Part shown: piece after piece, positions 8,278-21,255 of the stretch
How positions within the stretch are numbered: the stretch's first letter is position 1
How the letters are laid out: every line of letters starts with the position of its first letter
From: an uncultured Clostridia bacterium
GTDB taxonomy: Bacteria > Bacillota > Clostridia > Christensenellales > UBA1242
Direction: 5' to 3'
DNA: 39,272 nt
NCBI GenBank assembly: GCA_947591785.1
Contig: CANQDK010000004.1
Location: forward strand, 76,137-115,408
Program-made: the position numbers and the translations under genes
The notes under the pieces: model-generated
What the model was told of the DNA's origin: nothing
What the model saw: the letters and a program-made list of their open reading frames with translations, nothing else
Database searches by the model: none

Positions 8278-11200
8278 ATGAAAAAGAATTTTGTCAAAAA
8301 AAGTCCTGCCAAAAATACTGTTCAGAAAGTTTTGACGGGACTTATCGCAATTTTTATGTCGCTCACACTTTTTAGTGGGTGCTTTGTTCTGTTTAAGAAG
8401 TTGGACAAACCTGTTCCAGAAATTCAAAATGGAGAATCAGACAAAAGGGATTGGGAAGACTTTTCTGTTGACCATTTGGATGGAGAAGGAACTGAAAATT
8501 CTCCTTGGGAAATTTCTAATGCTGAAGATTTGGCGTTTTTATCATCTTCAATGACGAAATTGAAGGATGTCAATGCAGACACAAACAAAATTGCTGTGAC
8601 AAAAGCTCTTTCTGGTGTTTCGATTGAAAAGATTGCTTCTGACACACAAATTATGGCTCTTGCAACAAGCGAAGAAGCTCAAGAAGAAAATTATTTCACT
8701 TTCACTTCTGATATAAATCTTTCAAATTATCGCTGGAATCCAATTCCTGCACTAAATGGAGTTTTAGATGGAAATGGTCACACTCTTGATATTGGTGAGC
8801 GTGTTTTTTCTGATGAAGACTTAAAAAATCCAGTGTATAAACTTGATGAAAATGGATATGGAATTGCTCCGTTTGTTGGGGAGAACACTTCTATTTCAAA
8901 TATTCATGTTTCAGGAACAATGACAACAAGTGTTGTAACGGGAAGCCAAAAGCAAGAGGATAGTGGTGCTGGATGGGGTCAAGCAGGATTTGTCTATGTG
9001 GCAGGATATTCTGTTGTTAATGAAAATAATAAGACTTTAAATAATGTTGTTGTTGATGTAAATATCAAACATACCAGCAATTTTGATGGCGATAATTCAG
9101 TGTTTGTGGGAGGAATTGTTGCCATAAATTGCGGCATGATAAAAAATTGTATGTTTCGTGGAGGGATAGAGGTTTGTGTTAGAGAATGGAACGAACGACG
9201 TTTTGTTTCAGGTGGAATTTGTGCTTCAAATTGTAATGGCGTTATCATGGATTGTTTAAATTATGGAAGTATCAATTTAAGGTCGCTTCCAGTAAACTGG
9301 GCTCTTAGTCGGGCAGAAGATGGAGTTGTAGGTGGAATTTGCGGAGAATCTTTGCCGAAGATGAACTACAACGATGACTTGAAAACGCTGGGACTTAATA
9401 AATATGCATTTCATGATGACAGTTGGTTTAATAATAATCTAGAGTCTTCTTATAGGTCTGCAAATGGTACAATTGTTCGATGTGTAAATTTTGGAACAGT
9501 GGGCTGTTGGCTTACTGATTATACAGTTGATAGTAATCAGACAATTTATGCTTGTGGTGGTATTGTTGGTAAACTTGGCGGATGGGATTTTGGTTGGGGA
9601 GTGAATCAGGCGACTTACTATTATTATGGAGCAGACTGGCAAAGAGTTGAACATTGTGTAAATTTCGGAACATTGAGACTTACAGGAACAGCAGAGAAAA
9701 GAGATCCACCCTCAATAAATTCAGGTGAATCTTATAGACGTCCTCGTCGTGTTAAAATTCAAAGCGGTGGTGTTGGTGGAATTATTGGATTGTTTATTTT
9801 TGGTAACAGAACTAATGGCACAACGATTTGTCAGAATGCTGGAATGTTGGAGTGTGTAAATTATGGAAATGTTTATCGTAATCCTCTCACGGAAATTGAC
9901 AATGCTGGTATTGCCTGTTTAGTTGGGAATGCTAAATATAATGGTGTTAATAGCGGATACGATAATATCAATCTTTCTTTTAGTGGTGCAAATTTTGGTT
10001 ATGAATATTGTGTTAGATATAGTGATGCGGATCCTTCAGGCAGTCATCCAGACTATATGCAGGAAGTAGCATGGGGGCACTCCTCTCAAACACTTTATAA
10101 TGGCAATGATTATGACAAAATGACGGATTATAGTAATAATTATAATTATTTAGTGACCTTTCGTTCTCAAGATTTGCCTAATGGAACAGATGCAATCGGA
10201 GAATCGCTTAAAGATAAGCCTTTTGCAACATCAGTAAATAACAGTTCTGTGACAGCAGCTTTGGGAGAAAAAATTACTATTAATAGCAAAAATACATATT
10301 TTATTCCAATTTCTGCATTGACAGGCGTTAAATTTAAAATCAGAGGACAAAACCCTTATTCAAGTAATTATATTGATATGGCTATGAATCTCAATGATTT
10401 TTCAACAAAAAATTTGGGATATTATGATTCAAACAAATTTTGTAATGAGGCTTTTATGTTCTCAGATTCTGTTTTATATTCTGTTTTGTATTGTTTAAGA
10501 GGGTATGATGTTGGCGTCACGGTTGATTGTAAAAATCACGTATGTTCGGAAAATAATGAGGACTATGTTAATTATAGATATGCTATATACGATATAAGAA
10601 ATGATGCACAAAACAAAAGAACAATTTATGATGAAAATAGAATTAAACTTGATATACCTTTTGCTACTCAACTCAAGATGAATGTTTTTGATTGGAAAGA
10701 TGGAAATGTCCCTAATTATACAGCAGGTAGTCCTTTGTATTTCAATGAAATCATATTTAAGTCCACATATATACAAAGGGCTGACACTTTGGATAGTGTT
10801 AAGATATATGAATATGGTAAATATTTTACACCATTAGAACCTGAGATTTCTTTTGCAAATTTGTCATATAGCAGAAGGACTAAAACAGGAATAACTGAAA
10901 CAGGTAATTTTAATTTGCTTGAGCATTATGATTCTTCAACCCATTATACACTTAATGAAGATGATAAAATTGAATTAAGAATTTCTCCAAAAGTTGGCTA
11001 TGCAATTGCAAGTGTTGGTTTCAATAATAATGGAAGTTCATTTAACAATTTAATTACTGTCTATAATGGAACATCTAAAACGAATAGAACTCCTTCTGCA
11101 AACTATACTAACGAAAGCGGACAATCAAATGCTTCAATCCAATTTAGTCTTGGACAAGGTGGAGGACAGAATGTTTGGTCTGATTATTACGATTATAATA

Positions 11201-13461
11201 GTAATGAATCAAACGATGTATGGCTTGGAGATATTGTGTTGACTGCAACAATCCCAAGGGATATGAAGGCAATGGAAATCCTTTCAAATTTATATATTTA
11301 TTACAAACCTATTTCTTATAAAGTTATGTTTTACTCACGAGAAGGTGAATTTGATAAATCTTATCCACCAAATTCATCTGAAAAAATTAGTGAACAAGCT
11401 TTATCAAGTTCAAATTCTGTTTCTGCTTTTCAGGCTCTTTCAAATTTGAATCCTGGTTTGCGTAGCGGATATATTGCATCTGTTAAATTTTATGACATTA
11501 ATAAGAAGGAACATGACGAAGAAGTTATGCAGTTTGAATTGATGTCAAAAGATGTTTTAAATGAGTTTGGAAGGAGTGCCTATACTTATGATTATGGCAC
11601 AATCTCTTTGGACAAACTCTTGAAGGGTTTTATAAGTGATACTACTTCTGACTGTTTTTATCTTTGCATAATTCAGCAACCAAGAAATTTTTCTATTGAA
11701 ATAGAATCAACTTACAATGATTGGAATCATTTGGAAGAATTTACTGATGTGAGAGCCGATATGGGATTGCGAGCAGGAATAGTGCATAAAAATGATATTA
11801 GTGGTATCTATTATTTGCGTTTCAATACCAATGATAACGATGTTTCTATTGCATGTGGTTTAGATTCAACGCAAGGATATCAATTAAGCGTTGTTGAAGA
11901 TGATTTTAATAAGAAATTTACAACTTTGGCAACTGATAAAAATGGATTGCCTGTTCTTTCAGAATCTGGAACATGGGGGATTATGTATTCTATTGATGTT
12001 CAAAAACTCGCAGATGCTATTTACATGAATCTTGCTAAGTCTAGTAATGCTGGCACCTATTTCCAAAATTTTAAAGATTGCACATTATATAATGATTTAC
12101 TTGCAAGTGCTAGAAGTTATGTTTATCAGGGACAATTTAAATTGCAACAATTCACTCTTAATGGAGAAATCAAAAGCGTTGATGGTAAAAGTGGAACTAT
12201 CACTGTTGCAACTTACTCTTCTGAAAAATTGTCAGTAAACAATTATAAAACTTCTGATACAAAAATATTCTCCAATAATGGCTCTATGAAAGTCTATTAT
12301 AATGCCCCTGTGATTTTAACTGCAAGTAACGAAAGTGATTTTGGTGGATTCTACCTTGTCAAAGAAACTGATTTGGGTGAACAAGAATTTTTGCTTACTA
12401 ACAAAAATTATTTCCATTTCTTTGTTGATGTGAAAGATGCAATAAAAATTATTGATAGTGATGTGTTTAAAGCTGATCTTGGCAAAATTCACATTAAAGC
12501 GGTTTATGGTTTAAATGGTCAATCTGAAAACAAGAGTTCAAAGCCTGCAACTGAACAAGGTGTTTTGATGATTAAAAATGCTTCAGAAATGGTTTGGTTA
12601 AGTGAACAAATGGAAATGGGTGAAACTTTCTCAGGAAGAATCATTAAAATGTGTAATGATATTGACATGCAAAATGTTCCATTTAATCCTATTGGAACAA
12701 ATGTTAATAATGCTTTCCAAGGAACTTTTGATGGGCAATTCCATCATATAAAAAATTTGCTCGTCACTTCCGCTGAAGCAACTAATAGGGCTTACGGCTT
12801 GTTTGGATTTTTAGGTGATGGAGCTGTTGTAAAAAATTTGATTCTTGAATCTGGAAATGTTTCATGTATTAGTGCAAATGTTGGTGCTCTTGTTGGTTAT
12901 GCTAAAAATGCTACGATTTCTCGTGTTGAAAATTATGGTGTCAATGTTGGTGGTGGTATATCTGGTTTCTTTGATATTTTTACAAATCCAACAGAAAAGT
13001 ATATTCTATTCCATTCAACTGTTCAAGAAGAGATAACAAACAATATTCCTTCAACTTTATATGTTAATCCAGATACGCATGCTATTTTCTATACGGAAAG
13101 GCCTTTCAAAGATAATGATTCTGGCATTCAAGGAAGTGTTGGGGGCTTAATCGGAGAAGCAGATTCTGTTTCTATGATTGGTTGTTCAAATCGTGCAGAA
13201 GTCAATGGTGGCGGAGGCTTGATTGGTGATTCAACAAAAACAACTTTAAATCAGTGCTTCAGCACAACTGGTGATAAACTTAACAGTGTTGGCACTGCAA
13301 CATTCACAAATTGTTATCTTGGAGAAATTTCTGGAAAATATAATATGTCTTTATCCATAAGCAATGTTTGGAGTTCTGAATCTACTTTGTCGCAAAATTC
13401 TAAAATCTGGACTATTGTAAATGGAAATATTGCTTTGAAAATTTTCTACTGGGATACTTAA
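8278..13461 (+). CDS. Giant GLUG-repeat surface protein, probable lipoprotein
   Basis: This 1727-residue protein starts with a lysine-rich n-region, a hydrophobic stretch (about residues 18-34) and LFSGC, a lipobox-like site with Cys35, so it is probably exported and lipid-anchored. Two similar modules bracket it. Near residues 70-180 there is GEGTENSPWEISNAEDLAFL followed by GVLDGNGHTLDI. Near residues 1420-1570 there is a matching IKNASEMVWLSEQM, GTFDGQFHHIKNLLV and GLFGFLGDGAVVKNLIL; these are typical GLUG-motif beta-helix repeats. Between them, short repeated strands of the type CVNFGT or CVNYGN recur. The middle third is tyrosine- and asparagine-rich and unrecognised. GLUG proteins are usually adhesins or protease-type surface proteins, but no catalytic motif is evident here. 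A strong terminator follows, so it is probably a single-gene unit. Confidence 0.8.
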   Translation: MKKNFVKKSPAKNTVQKVLTGLIAIFMSLTLFSGCFVLFKKLDKPVPEIQNGESDKRDWEDFSVDHLDGEGTENSPWEISNAEDLAFLSSSMTKLKDVNADTNKIAVTKALSGVSIEKIASDTQIMALATSEEAQEENYFTFTSDINLSNYRWNPIPALNGVLDGNGHTLDIGERVFSDEDLKNPVYKLDENGYGIAPFVGENTSISNIHVSGTMTTSVVTGSQKQEDSGAGWGQAGFVYVAGYSVVNENNKTLNNVVVDVNIKHTSNFDGDNSVFVGGIVAINCGMIKNCMFRGGIEVCVREWNERRFVSGGICASNCNGVIMDCLNYGSINLRSLPVNWALSRAEDGVVGGICGESLPKMNYNDDLKTLGLNKYAFHDDSWFNNNLESSYRSANGTIVRCVNFGTVGCWLTDYTVDSNQTIYACGGIVGKLGGWDFGWGVNQATYYYYGADWQRVEHCVNFGTLRLTGTAEKRDPPSINSGESYRRPRRVKIQSGGVGGIIGLFIFGNRTNGTTICQNAGMLECVNYGNVYRNPLTEIDNAGIACLVGNAKYNGVNSGYDNINLSFSGANFGYEYCVRYSDADPSGSHPDYMQEVAWGHSSQTLYNGNDYDKMTDYSNNYNYLVTFRSQDLPNGTDAIGESLKDKPFATSVNNSSVTAALGEKITINSKNTYFIPISALTGVKFKIRGQNPYSSNYIDMAMNLNDFSTKNLGYYDSNKFCNEAFMFSDSVLYSVLYCLRGYDVGVTVDCKNHVCSENNEDYVNYRYAIYDIRNDAQNKRTIYDENRIKLDIPFATQLKMNVFDWKDGNVPNYTAGSPLYFNEIIFKSTYIQRADTLDSVKIYEYGKYFTPLEPEISFANLSYSRRTKTGITETGNFNLLEHYDSSTHYTLNEDDKIELRISPKVGYAIASVGFNNNGSSFNNLITVYNGTSKTNRTPSANYTNESGQSNASIQFSLGQGGGQNVWSDYYDYNSNESNDVWLGDIVLTATIPRDMKAMEILSNLYIYYKPISYKVMFYSREGEFDKSYPPNSSEKISEQALSSSNSVSAFQALSNLNPGLRSGYIASVKFYDINKKEHDEEVMQFELMSKDVLNEFGRSAYTYDYGTISLDKLLKGFISDTTSDCFYLCIIQQPRNFSIEIESTYNDWNHLEEFTDVRADMGLRAGIVHKNDISGIYYLRFNTNDNDVSIACGLDSTQGYQLSVVEDDFNKKFTTLATDKNGLPVLSESGTWGIMYSIDVQKLADAIYMNLAKSSNAGTYFQNFKDCTLYNDLLASARSYVYQGQFKLQQFTLNGEIKSVDGKSGTITVATYSSEKLSVNNYKTSDTKIFSNNGSMKVYYNAPVILTASNESDFGGFYLVKETDLGEQEFLLTNKNYFHFFVDVKDAIKIIDSDVFKADLGKIHIKAVYGLNGQSENKSSKPATEQGVLMIKNASEMVWLSEQMEMGETFSGRIIKMCNDIDMQNVPFNPIGTNVNNAFQGTFDGQFHHIKNLLVTSAEATNRAYGLFGFLGDGAVVKNLILESGNVSCISANVGALVGYAKNATISRVENYGVNVGGGISGFFDIFTNPTEKYILFHSTVQEEITNNIPSTLYVNPDTHAIFYTERPFKDNDSGIQGSVGGLIGEADSVSMIGCSNRAEVNGGGGLIGDSTKTTLNQCFSTTGDKLNSVGTATFTNCYLGEISGKYNMSLSISNVWSSESTLSQNSKIWTIVNGNIALKIFYWDT

Positions 13462-15795: not shown

Positions 15796-16434
15796 ATGAG
15801 TAAAAATGAAATTGTAAAGCAAAAGGCATTGAGAGGGAAAACAAAGATAAGACATCCCATTCATCAGACAGGTCTGTGGGGCGGGTTGTTAGAGGAATAT
15901 GACGAAAACGAAGCAAATTTTTCTTTTAGATTCAAATTAGATCAATATAATTTAAAAAATTTTAGCGAAATTACCGAACTAAACTTTGTTGCAGAAAGTT
16001 ATGCACGTGCTTGTTTAACGCTTTTAAAAGAGGTTAATAAATATAATTTAGGAAACCAAACTTCTATTAATAAAAAAAGAATTTATCGCTATTTGCCCGC
16101 CATGTTTTGTTTTAGACATTATCTAGAATTAAGATTGAAATGTCTTTATATGGATTTAACAAAAGAAAGTTTTTCAATGGAGCATTCTTTATCAAAATTA
16201 TTAGAGGAAGTAAAGAATGCTGGATTTAATATGGACTCATTTGATAAAGCAGTGGAATATATTTCAAATTTAGAAAAAAATGACGACTCTTATTTTAGAT
16301 ATTTAATTTCAAAATCTTTTAAGAGTGTAGACAAATTAACGATACCTGTTCATGAATTTGCAAAAGTAAACAATTGGATAAATAAAATTGAAATTGATTA
16401 TAATCATTTTATAAGAGAAAAAGTGTATGTATAG
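15796..16434 (+). CDS. Unrecognised soluble protein with HEPN-like helix (212 aa)
   Basis: I cannot assign this protein firmly. Its centre, FCFRHYLELRLKCLYMDLTK followed by MEHSLSKLLEEVKN, resembles the pattern of HEPN-like helical proteins (RH..E..LK, then H.L..LL). These are often found in abortive-infection or toxin-antitoxin contexts. The N-terminus has the unusual GLWGGLLEEYDENEANFSF. It has no signal peptide or membrane segment. It follows the coiled-coil gene by 12 bp and ends 28 bp before the promoter of the Asn-tRNA operon. As island cargo the pair could be a small defence or toxin-antitoxin unit, but that is conjecture. Confidence 0.65.
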   Translation: MSKNEIVKQKALRGKTKIRHPIHQTGLWGGLLEEYDENEANFSFRFKLDQYNLKNFSEITELNFVAESYARACLTLLKEVNKYNLGNQTSINKKRIYRYLPAMFCFRHYLELRLKCLYMDLTKESFSMEHSLSKLLEEVKNAGFNMDSFDKAVEYISNLEKNDDSYFRYLISKSFKSVDKLTIPVHEFAKVNNWINKIEIDYNHFIREKVYV

Positions 16435-16462
16435 ATTTGGAATAATTTTCCGAAAAAAAGTA

Positions 16463-16491
16463 TTGACATTTGGGTGAAAGTTGAGTACAAT
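16463..16491 (+). promoter_or_regulatory. Near-consensus promoter of the leader-aspS-gatCAB operon
   Basis: A perfect TTGACA (16463-16468), a 17-bp spacer and TACAAT (16486-16491) make this the best promoter in the window. Transcription should start near 16498, giving a 25-nt lead to the leader-peptide ATG. A very strong constitutive promoter is what attenuation-controlled operons usually show. Confidence 0.85.
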
Positions 16492-16522
16492 AAGGTTGTA
16501 AATTCAATAAAAGGAGCCAAAA

Positions 16523-16603
16523 ATGGTTGCGATTAGAGTTAATAACAACAATAATAATTTCAACGCATTAGTTTTAATGGGTTCCTTTATTGTTGTTGAT
16601 TAA
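16523..16603 (+). CDS. Asn-rich leader peptide (26 aa) of the attenuator
   Basis: AAAAGGAG (16509-16516) sits 6 nt before an ATG that opens a 26-codon ORF. Six consecutive Asn codons (16541-16558; AAT, AAC, AAC, then AAT three times) are followed by Phe and a seventh Asn. The rest is GSFIVVD and a TAA at 16601-16603. The peptide has no other recognisable function. Its stop codon lies inside the RNA segment that would form the antiterminator, so a ribosome finishing the peptide would cover it. This is the layout of amino-acid leader peptides such as trpL, here with Asn as the sensed residue. The downstream genes make Asn-tRNA(Asn). Confidence 0.85.
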   Translation: MVAIRVNNNNNNFNALVLMGSFIVVD

Positions 16604-16660
16604 CTTATAGAAAATTTGAAGTTATCAATGGGGTGGAGGAATTCCACTCCATTGTTTTTT
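16537..16660 (+). promoter_or_regulatory. Asparagine ribosome-mediated attenuator
   Basis: Four segments are visible. Segment 1 (16537-16554, the Asn codons) pairs with segment 2 (16587-16605, end of the leader ORF) over 18 bp with one bulged base. Segment 2 can instead pair, as 16593-16606, with segment 3 (16619-16631) over 13 bp with one bulge and three wobbles at the end, around a 12-nt loop. Segment 3 supplies the lower 5' arm of the 3:4 terminator. A ribosome stalled at Asn codons would cover segment 1, allow 2:3 and prevent termination. A ribosome reaching the stop would mask segment 2, allow 3:4 and terminate. The pairing was worked out by hand; the regulation is inferred. Confidence 0.8.
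16626..16660 (+). terminator. Attenuator terminator hairpin
   Basis: CAATGGGGTGGA (16626-16637) pairs with TCCACTCCATTG (16643-16654): 12 bp with one G-U pair and a 5-nt loop, followed directly by six T residues. It lies between the leader peptide and aspS, so it must be bypassed for the operon to be expressed. Confidence 0.9.
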
Positions 16661-16721
16661 ATATTCAAACTTTGGGTGGAAACGAATTTAATTTGAACAA
16701 AATTTTGAAAGGAGTTTTACC

Positions 16722-16895
16722 ATGAAAAAGAAATTTGATTTTGTTAGAGTTATCAATAATAACGCCGTGGCGGGCGGAGATTTTTCATGGACTAATTTAG
16801 TCAAAAAGGTTTTTAAAAAATACAAAAATTTGTTAAAATTAAAGGAGATTAAAAATGAAAAGGATTTATATCAAAGACATCCAGCCAGATGTTGA
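16722..16895 (+). CDS. Second small ORF with Asn codons, overlapping the aspS start (57 aa)
   Basis: GAAAGGAG (16707-16714) lies 7 nt before ATG 16722. The frame encodes MKKKFDFVRVINNNAVAGG, then a lysine-rich amphipathic stretch, and ends at a TGA (16893-16895), 41 nt inside aspS in another frame. The VRV-(I)-NNN pattern resembles RVNNN in leader 1, and the DNA shares TTAGAGTTA, suggesting a duplicated leader. CCATGAAAAA (16720-16729), covering the start codon, is exactly complementary to TTTTTCATGG (16781-16790), so initiation may be structurally controlled. Ribosomes reading this ORF would run over the aspS ribosome site (AAAGGAG, 16841-16847) and its start. It is probably a second regulatory ORF; a real small peptide is possible. 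Confidence 0.55.
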   Translation: MKKKFDFVRVINNNAVAGGDFSWTNLVKKVFKKYKNLLKLKEIKNEKDLYQRHPARC

Positions 16896-18150
16896 ATGCG
16901 AAATAAGTGGCTGGATTGAAAAAATACGAGAACAAAAGACCATGCTGTTTGTTGTTTTGAAAGACAGCACGGGAAGTGTGCAAGTGGCAATCGAAAAAGA
17001 AAAATTGCCCAAAATGGCACAAAAAATTGGAAAACTTTCAAGGCAAAGTGTTGTAAGGTTTTTCGGAAAGGCAAAAAAGGCTGAAATTGTCAAACTTGGC
17101 GGAATTGAGTTTGTTCCAACAAGTTTTGAAATTGAAAGTGTTGCCGAAGAACTGCCCATCGACAGCGAAAGCGGAAAAGAACTTAAAATGGATTTTCGCT
17201 GGATTGATTTAAGGCAGGACAAAGAGCGATTGATTTTTCAAATTCGCACCTACGCCGAGCACATTATGAGAGAGTTTTTCATTGAGAAAGGCTTTATTGA
17301 AATTCACACTCCAAAAATCACAACGCAGTGTTCGGAAGGTGGTGCAGATGTGTTTGCGGTGGATTATTATGGGCAAAGGGCATATCTCACGCAGAGCCCA
17401 CAATTTTACAAGCAAATGGCAATGGCTGCTGGCTTTGACAAAATGTTTGAAATTGGTCCATATTATCGAGCGGAAAAATCTTTCACGGCAAGGCACACGG
17501 CGGAAGCGACTTGTTTGGATTTTGAAATTGCCCATGTGAAAAGCCATCACGAAATTATGGATTTTGAAGAGGAATTTTTCATCTACACTCTTTCAAAAAT
17601 CAAAGAAAAATATGGCAGTTTAATCAAAGAAGAATTTGATTTGGACATTCTTGTGCCAACAAAAATTCCAAGGCTGAAACTATGCGAAGTTTTTAAGATT
17701 TTCAAAGAAACTTATGGCATTGAAGTTCCGGAAGAAAAGCAACTTGATTTGGACCCTGACCAAGAGAAACTTATTTGCGACTATTCCAGCAAATATTTGG
17801 GCAGCGAGGCGGTGTTTATAACCGACTATCCTGCCGAGGCGCGTGCATTTTATTCCAAAAAAATTGACGGGACGTTTGACTGCATGGCCTTTGATATGTT
17901 ATACAGAGGATGGGAGTTAAACAGCGGAGCCGTGCGTGAGTACCGATATCAAGAGCTTAAAGCACAAATTGAAGAGCATGGCGTGGACAGCGAGAAAATG
18001 AAGGACTATTTGGAATTTTTCAAATACGGCTGCCCACCACACGGCGGAATTGGATTTGGAATTGACCGATTTATTGCAAAATTGTTGGGACTGCCAAGCC
18101 TGAAAGAAAGCATTTTTGTTTTCCGTGGCCCAAGCAGAGTCAAACCTTAG
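16855..18150 (+). CDS. aspS: Archaeal-type aspartyl-tRNA synthetase (aspartate--tRNA(Asp/Asn) ligase)
   Basis: This class II synthetase charges tRNA with aspartate. At 431 residues it lacks the ~150-residue insertion of the standard bacterial AspRS (about 590 aa). It matches the short archaeal/eukaryotic type: OB-fold anticodon domain (1-105), QSPQFYKQ (180-187), motif 2 around R205-A-E207 with RH at 213-214, RGWELNSG at 351-358 and motif 3 around GGIGFGIDRF (397-406). RGWELNSG and PPHGG favour AspRS over the related AsnRS. Its place before gatCAB and behind an Asn leader suggests a non-discriminating enzyme making Asp-tRNA(Asn). Specificity positions aligned by eye to archaeal enzymes are mixed, so specificity is inferred from context. 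AAAGGAG lies 7 nt before the ATG. Confidence 0.93.
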   Translation: MKRIYIKDIQPDVECEISGWIEKIREQKTMLFVVLKDSTGSVQVAIEKEKLPKMAQKIGKLSRQSVVRFFGKAKKAEIVKLGGIEFVPTSFEIESVAEELPIDSESGKELKMDFRWIDLRQDKERLIFQIRTYAEHIMREFFIEKGFIEIHTPKITTQCSEGGADVFAVDYYGQRAYLTQSPQFYKQMAMAAGFDKMFEIGPYYRAEKSFTARHTAEATCLDFEIAHVKSHHEIMDFEEEFFIYTLSKIKEKYGSLIKEEFDLDILVPTKIPRLKLCEVFKIFKETYGIEVPEEKQLDLDPDQEKLICDYSSKYLGSEAVFITDYPAEARAFYSKKIDGTFDCMAFDMLYRGWELNSGAVREYRYQELKAQIEEHGVDSEKMKDYLEFFKYGCPPHGGIGFGIDRFIAKLLGLPSLKESIFVFRGPSRVKP

Positions 18151-18159
18151 GAGGAAGAT

Positions 18160-18429
18160 ATGAAAGTCGATTTAAAGCATTTGGAATATTTGAGCAAACT
18201 CAAAATTGAAGATGGCGAAAAGGAAAAATTTGAGGCCGATTTTGTCAAAATTTTGGATTTTGTGGACGAAATCACAAAACTTGATTTGCCCGAAGAATAC
18301 AAGGCAAAGGCAGTGCCTTTAAGTGAACTTCGAGCAGATGAAGTGCAAATAGTCGAGCCTTGCGATACGCTCTTGAACGCACCAAAGAAAAAAGACGGGT
18401 GTTTTGTGACGCCACTGGTGGTGGAATGA
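18160..18429 (+). CDS. gatC: Asp/Glu-tRNA amidotransferase subunit GatC
   Basis: GatC is the small belt-like subunit that holds GatA and GatB together in the transamidosome. The 89-residue length and the pattern LEYLSKLKIEDGEKEKFEADFVKILDF, followed by a central proline-containing linker and a C-terminal DGCFVTPLVVE, are typical. It starts 9 bp after aspS with GGAGGA upstream, and its stop overlaps the gatA start (ATGATGA). The order aspS-gatC-gatA-gatB places the charging enzyme and the amidating complex in one transcript. Confidence 0.93.
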   Translation: MKVDLKHLEYLSKLKIEDGEKEKFEADFVKILDFVDEITKLDLPEEYKAKAVPLSELRADEVQIVEPCDTLLNAPKKKDGCFVTPLVVE

Positions 18430-19856
18430 TGAAAGCAGAATTTGATAAAATGACTGTTCGCGAGCTTGCGAAAGGGATTAAGTCACAAAAATACAAAAGT
18501 GAAGAAATTGTGCGATTTTTTGCAGAAAAATGCGAAAAATTTGCGAAATTTAATGCAATTATTGAAGTCTTTGATGATGTTTTTGAAAAAGCACGCTCGA
18601 TAGATGAAAAAATTGCTCGCGGAGAAAAAGTGGGGAAACTTGCCGGAGTGCCTGTTGCAATCAAAGATAACATTTTGTGCAAAGGCAAAAAAATGAGTTG
18701 TGCAAGCAAATTTATGAAAGATTTTGTTGCACCTTTTTCTTCCACAATTGTCAATAAACTTGAAAGCGAGGATGCTATTATTTTTGCACGCACAAACATG
18801 GACGAGTTTGCTATGGGTGGCAGCACCGAAAATACAATTTATGGGCCATGCAAAAACGCGTTTGACGAGTCGCGTGTTGCCGGTGGTAGCAGTGGTGGAA
18901 GTGCGGTGGCTGTTGCACTTGGTCTTTGCCCAGTGGCTATTGGAACTGACACTGGCGGCTCAATAAGACAGCCAAGTTCTTTCAATGGCGTTGTTGGAAT
19001 TAAGCCAACTTATGGCACTGTGTCGAGATATGGAATTGTGGCGTTTGCAAGTTCCACCGACCAAGCCAGCCCAATCACAAGAACGATTGCGGATAGTGAA
19101 TTTGTTTTGAGCATTCTCGCCGGAAAAGACGAACATGACATGACTACAATTGACAGCGATTTTGAAAAAGCTTCAACAAAGAAAAAATACATTATTGGGC
19201 TTTGTAAAGAATTGGCTGAAAAAATCAAATCACTGCCAGAATATCCACATTTTAAAGCCGCTGTGGAAAAGATGAAACAAGAAAGCTTTGATTTTGTAGA
19301 AGTTAGCGTTCCGCACATTTTGAACAGTCTTGCTTGCTATTACATTTTGACGCCTGCGGAAGCTGCATCCAACCTTGCTCGATTTGACGGGGTTAAATAC
19401 ACAAGTCGCAGTGCGAGCGCGAGGACTTTGGAAGAAGTTTTTGTGAAGAGCCGCAGTGAAGGTTTTGGGAAAGAAGTGCAACGCAGAATAATGCTTGGCA
19501 ACTTTGTGCTTTCAAGCGGATATTTTGACGCCTATTACAAAAAGGCAAAAGCCCTTCAGCAACTTTTGAAAAAAGAGTTTGCTGCCGCATTTGAAAAGTG
19601 CGATTGCATTCTCACTCCAACAACTCCGGGCGAAGCGTTTGAGATTGGCGGAAAAATCAAAGATCCATTGTCAATGTATCTGGAAGATTTGTTTACTGTG
19701 CCAGCAAGCATTTCGGGCATTCCAGCACTCTCTGTGCCTTACGCGAAAGGTGAGCACGGCTTGCCACTTGGCTTGCAGTTTATGGGCAGTGCAGGAAGTG
19801 AAAAGGTGCTTTATGACATTGCTAAAAAGTTTGAGGGAGGCTGCTATGGAATATGA
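18429..19856 (+). CDS. gatA: Asp/Glu-tRNA amidotransferase subunit GatA (amidase)
   Basis: GatA releases ammonia from glutamine, or from asparagine, for amidation of mischarged tRNA by GatB. The 475-residue protein has the amidase-signature triad at canonical positions: Lys79 in PVAIKDN, cis-Ser154 in AGGSSGGSA and Ser178 in GTDTGGSIRQPSS. I start it at ATG 18429 (18426 is an adjacent in-frame ATG). The frame extends further upstream but would then lie inside gatC. It overlaps gatC at the start and gatB by 11 bp at the end, so translation is tightly coupled. Codon use is richer in GCC, GGC and CGC than in genes outside the segment. Confidence 0.96.
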   Translation: MKAEFDKMTVRELAKGIKSQKYKSEEIVRFFAEKCEKFAKFNAIIEVFDDVFEKARSIDEKIARGEKVGKLAGVPVAIKDNILCKGKKMSCASKFMKDFVAPFSSTIVNKLESEDAIIFARTNMDEFAMGGSTENTIYGPCKNAFDESRVAGGSSGGSAVAVALGLCPVAIGTDTGGSIRQPSSFNGVVGIKPTYGTVSRYGIVAFASSTDQASPITRTIADSEFVLSILAGKDEHDMTTIDSDFEKASTKKKYIIGLCKELAEKIKSLPEYPHFKAAVEKMKQESFDFVEVSVPHILNSLACYYILTPAEAASNLARFDGVKYTSRSASARTLEEVFVKSRSEGFGKEVQRRIMLGNFVLSSGYFDAYYKKAKALQQLLKKEFAAAFEKCDCILTPTTPGEAFEIGGKIKDPLSMYLEDLFTVPASISGIPALSVPYAKGEHGLPLGLQFMGSAGSEKVLYDIAKKFEGGCYGI

Positions 19857-21255
19857 TGTTGTTATCGGACTTGAAATTCATGCCGAATTAAAAACAAAAA
19901 CCAAAGTTTTTTGCTCTTGCAAAAACGAATTTGGTGCAAAGCCGAACGCAAACACTTGTCCTGTCTGCACGGGAATGCCAGGTGCACTGCCAATCATCAA
20001 CAGGCATGCTGTGGAACTTTGTATAAAGGCGGGCTTGTGTTTTGGCTGCTCAATTTCGGAATATGCCGTGATGGAACGCAAAAACTATTTCTATCCCGAC
20101 CTTGCCAAAGCCTATCAAATCAGCCAGATGGTACATCCGATTTGCATTGGTGGAGGAATTGAACTGAAAAGCGGCAAATTGATGCGTTTGAACCGAATCC
20201 ACTTGGAAGAAGATGCGGGAAAACTTACGCATATCAGTCGTGCGGTTGGAACACTTGTGGATTATAACCGTGGCGGAACTCCACTTATTGAAATTGTCAC
20301 TGAGCCTGACTTTTCGACTGCCGAAGAAGTGGATGAATTTTTGAAACGCGTGCGTGAAAGCCTTATTTATGCTGGCATTGCCGACTGCAAAATGGAAGAG
20401 GGTGGAATGCGTTGTGATGTTAACTTGTCGCTCAAGCCAAAAGGCTCGCAAGTGCTTGGCACAAGAACAGAAATGAAAAACCTCAACTCTTTCAAAAGCG
20501 TGACGCGTGCGATTGAATATGAAATCAAACGCCAAGAAGAAATTTTAGATGAGGGCGGAAAAATTATTCAAGAAACACGAAAGTGGGATGATGCCAAAGG
20601 CAAAAACCTTTCTATGCGCACAAAAGAGCAGGCACAGGATTATCGCTATTTTCCTGATCCAGACATTTTACCAATTTCAATTTCAAAAAGCGATGTTGAA
20701 AGAATAAAGGAAGAGATGCCAATGCTGCCAGAAGACAGGCGAAAAAGATATGTCGAAGAGTTTGGCTTGCCTGAATATGACGCGGCAATTTTGACATCTT
20801 CAAAATATGTTTCTGACTATTTTGAAAAGTGCGTGAAAATTTTTGACAGCCCAAAGAAAATCAGCAACTGGATTATGGTTGATTTACTGAAACTCGTCAA
20901 AGAGCAAGAAGATTTTGTTTTTCCAATTTCGGAAGAAGATTTGTGCGAAATAATCAAGATGGTGGAAGAAAAAATTATCAACAAAACTGTTGGACTTCAA
21001 CTTTTGGACGCAGTGATAAAAACCGGCAAAAAGCCAAGCGTTTTGGCAAAAGAAATGAATCTGATTGTGACAATCAGCGAAAAGCAAATTTTGTTGCTTT
21101 TGCAAAAACTTAAATCCGAAAACGCAAAAGTGAGCGAAGATTATGCAAAAGAGCCGCAAAAAGTTGTTGGCTTCATTGTGGGCTATGTTATGAAAAACAC
21201 CGCCGGCAAAGCCAACGCCGAACTTGTGAAAAGTCTAATCCAAAAAGTGTTTTGA
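19846..21255 (+). CDS. gatB: Asp/Glu-tRNA amidotransferase subunit GatB
   Basis: GatB binds the mischarged tRNA, phosphorylates the Asp or Glu side chain and replaces it with ammonia channelled from GatA. The 469 residues begin with YDVVIGLEIHAELKT and the zinc-binding cysteines (CSC...CPVC), then show YFYPDLAKAYQISQ, GKLTHISRAVGTLVDYNRGG, the YRYFPDPDILPI block and a C-terminal helical YqeY-like tail. I chose ATG 19846, which has GAGGGAGG just upstream; the open frame before it is inside gatA. It is the last gene of the operon. The 207 bp between it and the tRNA-Leu hold no clear terminator or gene. Confidence 0.96.
   Translation: MEYDVVIGLEIHAELKTKTKVFCSCKNEFGAKPNANTCPVCTGMPGALPIINRHAVELCIKAGLCFGCSISEYAVMERKNYFYPDLAKAYQISQMVHPICIGGGIELKSGKLMRLNRIHLEEDAGKLTHISRAVGTLVDYNRGGTPLIEIVTEPDFSTAEEVDEFLKRVRESLIYAGIADCKMEEGGMRCDVNLSLKPKGSQVLGTRTEMKNLNSFKSVTRAIEYEIKRQEEILDEGGKIIQETRKWDDAKGKNLSMRTKEQAQDYRYFPDPDILPISISKSDVERIKEEMPMLPEDRRKRYVEEFGLPEYDAAILTSSKYVSDYFEKCVKIFDSPKKISNWIMVDLLKLVKEQEDFVFPISEEDLCEIIKMVEEKIINKTVGLQLLDAVIKTGKKPSVLAKEMNLIVTISEKQILLLLQKLKSENAKVSEDYAKEPQKVVGFIVGYVMKNTAGKANAELVKSLIQKVF

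Follow-up and report, generated by a model that had tools for sequence, protein, structure and literature searches.

How does a bacterium that makes Asn-tRNA(Asn) by tRNA-dependent amidation adjust this pathway to the supply of its product? The question is raised by a stretch of 39,272 nucleotides (the window, meaning this whole stretch) from contig CANQDK010000004.1 of an uncultured Clostridia bacterium, in which the aspS2-gatCAB operon is preceded by a leader with a run of asparagine codons, located between an open reading frame (ORF) ending at 16434 and aspS2 at 16855. An initial annotation, made from the letters alone, had read this leader as an asparagine-sensing attenuator. We assign a probability of about 0.88 to the proposal that a ribosome-mediated transcription attenuator sensing charged tRNA(Asn) controls aspS2-gatCAB. 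Conservation, gene context and covariation support that reading, and we infer the sensing of Asn-tRNA charging, the direction of the response and its kinetics.

Anatomy of the leader

The elements of the leader, all on the plus strand, are the following.

16463 to 16491, plus: sigma-70-type promoter, TTGACA, 17 nt, TACAAT (11 of 12 consensus matches)
16510 to 16516, plus: Shine-Dalgarno (SD) sequence AAAGGAG of the leader ORF
16523 to 16603, plus: Asn-run leader peptide ORF of 26 codons, MVAIRVNNNNNNFNALVLMGSFIVVD, from ORF reading, with counterparts in relatives
16541 to 16564, plus: regulatory Asn codons, six consecutive, then one Phe and one further Asn
16536 to 16606, plus: helix 1:2, a bulged helix of about 20 bp (16536-16557 with 16587-16606), from the fold and shown by only some relatives
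16579 to 16644, plus: antiterminator, 16583-16606 with 16619-16640, core 16579-16591 with 16632-16644, from folds and covariation
16626 to 16660, plus: intrinsic terminator, 12-bp stem 16626-16637/16643-16654 followed by T6 at 16655-16660

The consensus promoter and the 12-bp terminator with its six T of the initial annotation are found as listed, and ORF reading bears out the 26-codon leader with its ribosome site, six Asn codons and a seventh. Its two remaining helices needed redrawing: the proposed 18-bp helix exists as helix 1:2, but with the larger, bulged extent given above, and the 13-bp competing helix is present but belongs to the longer antiterminator. Promoter-like matches in 16000-17000 occur, by themselves, at chance level (6 against 5.1 expected), and terminator-like sites number two, overlapping, against 0.2 expected. 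The Asn codons at 16541-16558 and 16562-16564 are a mixture of AAT and AAC. The entire leader folds with z = -6.1, a stability reached by 0 of 200 shuffles. An additional complementarity joins 16510-16518, at the SD, to 16580-16588 (GGTTCCTTT); the helix is recovered by RNAalifold on six loci. The anatomy of the attenuator, its conservation and its covariation can be read directly from the sequences compared here.

Ribosome position and the choice between helices

The mutual exclusion of the helices, claimed in the initial annotation, was checked by folding the window RNA with ribosome positions blocked. If the ribosome occupies the third Asn codon and the RNA ends at 16642, the antiterminator has a probability of 0.86, as against 0.01 with the ribosome at the stop codon. 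In the latter state the terminator of the full-length RNA has a probability of 1.00, and 16513-16518 is paired with 16580-16585. The ribosome-free RNA forms helix 1:2 and the terminator (0.99). In these predictions, the ribosome-blocked folds show the pattern expected for attenuation.

We propose that, when Asn-tRNA(Asn) is scarce, the ribosome would stall on the Asn run, leaving 16583-16606 free to pair with 16619-16640 as the RNA polymerase advances, with the core formed by 16579-16591 and 16632-16644. The antiterminator would prevent the terminator from forming, and aspS2-gatCAB would be transcribed. With ample Asn-tRNA(Asn), the ribosome would reach the stop codon at 16601-16603 and cover 16583-16606, so that the terminator would form; in this state GGTTCC could mask the leader's own SD and thereby block re-initiation. 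In a leader free of ribosomes helix 1:2 would form and the terminator would win again. The operon would make Asp-tRNA(Asn) and convert it by amidation into Asn-tRNA(Asn), so that the product feeds back on its own synthesis. Judged by its sequence, the leader would act like a trp-type attenuator specific for asparagine, with the structural features tested for that type except a conserved helix 1:2.

Leaders at related aspS2 genes

Relatives of aspS2 were gathered through protein similarity, independently of the leader; since the loci were found by protein, leaders in front of them constitute evidence that does not depend on the leader itself. An Asn-run leader with an SD-like sequence is present in 12 of 12 aspS2 loci with at least 55% identity and enough upstream sequence, the window included. 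At one further locus (L006, identical with L045) the upstream sequence starts 373 bases ahead of the gene; a leader (L129) lies at the end of another contig of the same genome, and this contig end is identical to the first 130 bases of L006 (130 of 130). The wider collection holds 80 aspS2 loci, 33 of which were tested, and among these the 21 chosen from L054 onward have no such leader.

Leaders across the family

A covariance model built from six leaders matched in 30 of 309 genomes of the family, and one built from 38 leaders found 58 sites in 53 of the 309 genomes, covering 12 of 42 genera. The genes behind the 58 sites were identified by tblastn with the aspS2, gatC and gatA of the window, an asnA (TIGR00669) and a bacterial aspS. 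As the leader models hold no information on downstream genes, the gene association counts as independent evidence: 56 of the 58 sites precede asnA (21), aspS2 (19), gatC-gatA (10) or bacterial aspS (6), and two precede none of them. The figure for aspS2 comprises 18 direct assignments and L129, assigned by contig overlap; L213 and L214 are near-identical sites in one genome. On the sequence evidence the Asn leaders make up a regulon, many of whose loci also have a second conserved short ORF. The initial annotation had taken a lack of conservation of the Asn run or of the alternative helices in relatives as refuting its reading. Relatives do not refute it: the run is kept at 56 tabulated places in the family, 55 of which precede genes for the production of Asn or Asn-tRNA, and the antiterminator covaries. 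The leader SD and ORF recur as well, and a terminator was placed at 38 of the first 39 loci (eight of the 38 by hand; L140, where no leader was called, was dropped) and at 18 of 18 added loci. Outside the run the leaders vary, as they do in length and in the position of the stop codon, and what is kept is the run, together with the SD and an antiterminator that covaries. Codons in the 56 runs, taken as stretches of Asn or Asp, are AAT (249), AAC (121), GAT (9) and GAC (5); such a mixture of Asn synonyms would be expected if it is the amino acid, and not a DNA repeat, that is kept.

The leader model R2 gave no match outside the family, its matches in 5 of 396 genomes of the order and 1 of 391 of the class being all from the family itself; this absence is weak because the filters were stricter and few candidates were scored per genome.

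Some sites depart from the common arrangement. At L174 (G078:C19:40740-41018) an Asn leader and the second element described below stand ahead of an unassigned gene (MKKKYIFTKDSKFTHLKDKMHQ...), and at L144 and L166 an extra gene without assigned function lies between the leader and asnA, which comes later. The leader-like site L140 (G187:C1:172607-172758) shows none of the usual start codons in frame with its Asn codons, and its first same-strand ORF of at least 80 codons, about 900 bases downstream, is none of the Asn genes; this site is possibly a relic.

Covariation of the antiterminator

Across the loci, the apex of the terminator is complementary to a segment (mostly GGGTTYC) that lies within the leader ORF or directly behind it, and the two sides change together: GGGTTCC/GGAATCC, GGTTTC/GAAACC, GGGTTTCA/TGAAATCC, GGTTTTC/GAAAACC, GTGAGCC/GGTTCAC, GGACCT/AGGTCC and AGTTTCA/TGAAACT. 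When segments were paired within their own locus the score was 20.0 for 38 loci, against 15.4 (sd 0.48) after permutation, and 19.4 for 56 loci, against 14.3 (sd 0.38); in both sets 0 of 5000 permutations did as well. In seven gatC-gatA leaders the antiterminator has a covariation score of 0.276, compared with at most 0.081 for slid versions. By these sequence comparisons the conserved antiterminator core is the pairing of the leader segment 16579-16591 with the terminator apex 16632-16644, and helix 1:2, clear in the window's own fold, is less conserved.

Evidence against the proposal and alternative explanations

Several results weigh against the attenuator. (i) Most loci came from models built on leaders, and hence the Asn run and the pairing segment were partly selected for. 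(ii) The covariation permutations ignore relatedness among loci, and for the seven gatC-gatA loci 10 of 500 column shuffles reach the observed score and 33 of 500 the observed fraction of pairs that form. (iii) In many relatives the antiterminator region does not clearly exceed shuffles in stability: z is below -1 in 25 of 38 loci overall (13 of 14 in the aspS2 set), with weaker values in the asnA and aspS sets. (iv) The pairing of the run with segment 2 (helix 1:2) is missing from the minimum-energy fold in 12 of 38 loci. (v) More distant aspS2 loci (L012-L034) have an Asn-run leader within 600 bases in 0 of 23 cases by the same test; among them, L031 has only 224 upstream bases, and the ORF with three Asn at L016 looks unrelated. 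(vi) In the full-length RNA the terminator is still preferred with an Asn-stalled ribosome (0.97), so that antitermination would have to be kinetic, the antiterminator forming first. (vii) Runs of five AAY triplets, in any frame and on both strands, occur at three distinct sites in the 1.2-Mb genome, with 2 + 4 overlapping matches against 4 + 4 in the backwards control. Since the Asn run is no rarer than in this control, frequency fails to decide whether it arose by chance, and the case is built instead on conservation, gene context and covariation.

Of the other two AAY-run sites of the genome, one is a short open frame and one a 62-codon ORF that has an SD. The latter (L036, G000:C1:59162-59182) is Asn-rich, with seven consecutive Asn codons and the C-terminal sequence GCGCFRNNVLG.

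The terminator might be constitutive or regulated otherwise, the Asn-rich ORF being a small protein or a by-product that senses nothing. Asn-rich small ORFs do exist elsewhere in the genome (C1:59162), as this explanation would have it, but it leaves unexplained that otherwise variable leaders keep their run, their SD and an antiterminator that covaries, that Asn-pathway genes lie downstream and that AAT and AAC are mixed within the runs; a conserved small protein is moreover unlikely because the peptides outside the run differ between gene classes. We regard this explanation as very unlikely. Slightly less credible still is that the leader is a riboswitch of a kind not recognised so far, binding Asn, a protein or, in the manner of a T-box, tRNA(Asn), with translation secondary. 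No Rfam family, T-box RF00230 included, reaches its gathering score at the window leader, and none does at the leaders of L007-L011, although a scan of this type does find a T-box ahead of the bacterial aspS of this genome; a T-box or another known RNA was therefore rejected as the identity of the leader, and conservation is seen in the run, in the pairing segment and in the terminator.

The least probable alternative is that the leader senses the general state of translation or growth, through ribosome availability, the Asn run being merely a slow stretch. Helix 1:2 and the masking of the SD would tie the switch to leader translation in any event, which agrees with this view, but genes for Asn or Asn-tRNA production stand behind the Asn runs at 56 of 58 model sites.

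The second short ORF

Two further elements lie behind the terminator in the window.

16722 to 16895, plus: second short ORF, MKKKFDFVRVINNNAVAGG..., with its SD at 16708-16714 and an out-of-frame overlap with the start of aspS2
16761 to 16775, plus: Asn codon AAC with the hairpin-capable GCCGTGGCGGGC, within the second ORF

In general this second element is a short ORF, preceded by an SD of its own and located between the terminator and the gene. It contains an Asn codon immediately followed by a conserved hairpin, GCC(C)...(G)GGC, the whole reading mostly as N-A-x-x-G (NAVAG motif). It is found in 19 of 21 asnA loci, 15 of 18 aspS2, 1 of 6 aspS and 0 of 10 gatC-gatA, and at the one locus with an unassigned gene; at L010 and L011 it has one codon inserted. 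The ORF and SD around it were called by script at 31 of the 38 first loci. For the exact pattern AAYGCCGTDGCGGGCG there are 23 matches, spread over 22 of 309 genomes, compared with one for the reversed control, and all 23 stand behind an Asn leader (11 printed directly and 12 within tabulated leader loci).

Though this is less likely than not, the sequences may reflect a family-specific asparagine regulon with two leader ORFs in series, in which the Asn run would decide termination and the second ORF would be a separate sensor of Asn at the level of translation, some asnA loci adding a pseudoknot that hides or frees the ribosome-binding site. A candidate pseudoknot between the second ORF and asnA is seen at L136, L141, L144, L145, L146, L149, L155, L156, L162, L172 and L173, where the anti-SD arm can alternatively pair with the SD of asnA. 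An initial automatic test on 15 loci (322 of 5000) failed to reach significance. With a test anchored on the anti-SD motif the result was 104 of 5000 on nine loci; the input of this second test was 22 loci with asnA or the unassigned gene, from which two without the second element and one without a gene start were removed, and ten of the remaining 19 have the motif, nine of these being tested.

A masking of the aspS2 SD by the region of the second ORF was considered for the window. It is not claimed, because the fold is ordinary (z -1.05, 30 of 200 shuffles as good) and the pairing with the SD region is limited to a 6-bp A/U helix.

The operon and the asparagine supply

The genes behind the leader are those that the initial annotation had recognised, an archaeal-type aspS and gatCAB.

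16855 to 18150, plus: aspS2, archaeal-type non-discriminating Asp-tRNA(Asn) ligase (NF003483, 8e-124, above cut-off)
18160 to 18429, plus: gatC (TIGR00135, above cut-off)
18429 to 19856, plus: gatA, with ATG at 18426 or 18429 (TIGR00132, above cut-off)
19846 to 21255, plus: gatB, the sole copy found in the genome

The genome of the window is 98% complete. It gave no match to AsnA in a search that detects AsnA in 2 of 14 named control genomes, and its sole PF00733 match, sought as AsnB, is MnmA (PF00733 is positive in 11 of 14 controls). Because no recognisable AsnA or AsnB is present in the genome, asparagine is probably made there through aspS2-gatCAB alone, and the product of this route is what the leader would read. 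An asnS is present too, behind a bacterial aspS preceded by a T-box. This T-box (L003:1224-1395, G000 contig C6) has a specifier that reads GAC (Asp) in the alignment. The same genome thus seems to employ a T-box for Asp and a leader peptide for Asn.

Elsewhere in the window, a 1727-aa ORF at 8278-13461, without Pfam match at 1e-5, adjoins gyrB and gyrA.

Relation to known regulatory systems

The initial annotation knew of no Asn leader-peptide attenuator for such genes, and our search likewise turned up none in the literature covered, outside which most subscription papers fall. With the attenuators of trp, his and leu type, found in Proteobacteria and Actinobacteria and as Rli60 in Listeria, the Asn leader shares regulatory codons in a short leader ORF, an antiterminator and a terminator that exclude each other, and an operon product that is the sensed residue. 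It differs in that it would sense Asn and control tRNA-dependent amidation, in that its antiterminator core pairs with the terminator apex, and in that a second leader-like ORF often follows. According to PMC5864092, Rli60 shows that attenuators of the ribosome-mediated type occur in Firmicutes, and PMC1262725 gives candidate trpS and leuS leaders in Streptomyces. Codons cognate to the downstream aminoacyl-tRNA enzyme are likewise described, in PMC8632094, for the uORFC-8-2 attenuator of cysS in Rhodobacterales, but that system concerns Cys and alphaproteobacteria and is likened here by its description, not by sequence.

For tRNA-dependent amidation itself, control by a T-box is indicated by reference titles in PMC4206432. 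T-boxes bind tRNA directly, whereas no T-box was found at the Asn leader and the ribosome would be the sensor. A 2008 survey (PMC2494555) has no T-boxes before amidotransferase genes in its species. The LEU element of leuA in Actinobacteria (PMC1262725) combines a leader ORF with a candidate pseudoknot on the ribosome-binding site and so resembles the region after the second ORF in some asnA relatives; it differs in reading Leu, and nothing alike is seen in the operon of the window.

If the proposal holds, an asparagine-specific leader-peptide attenuator would parallel, with the ribosome as its sensor, the T-box that has been reported for tRNA-dependent amidation, and two unrelated sensors of tRNA charging would serve one pathway in different bacteria. 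In a genome without recognisable asparagine synthetase, tRNA-dependent asparagine synthesis would be governed by a sensor that directly reads its product. The second ORF in series would be a new test case for two-level leader control, and asnA, aspS2, aspS and gatCAB would make up one asparagine regulon in a family of uncultured gut Clostridia.
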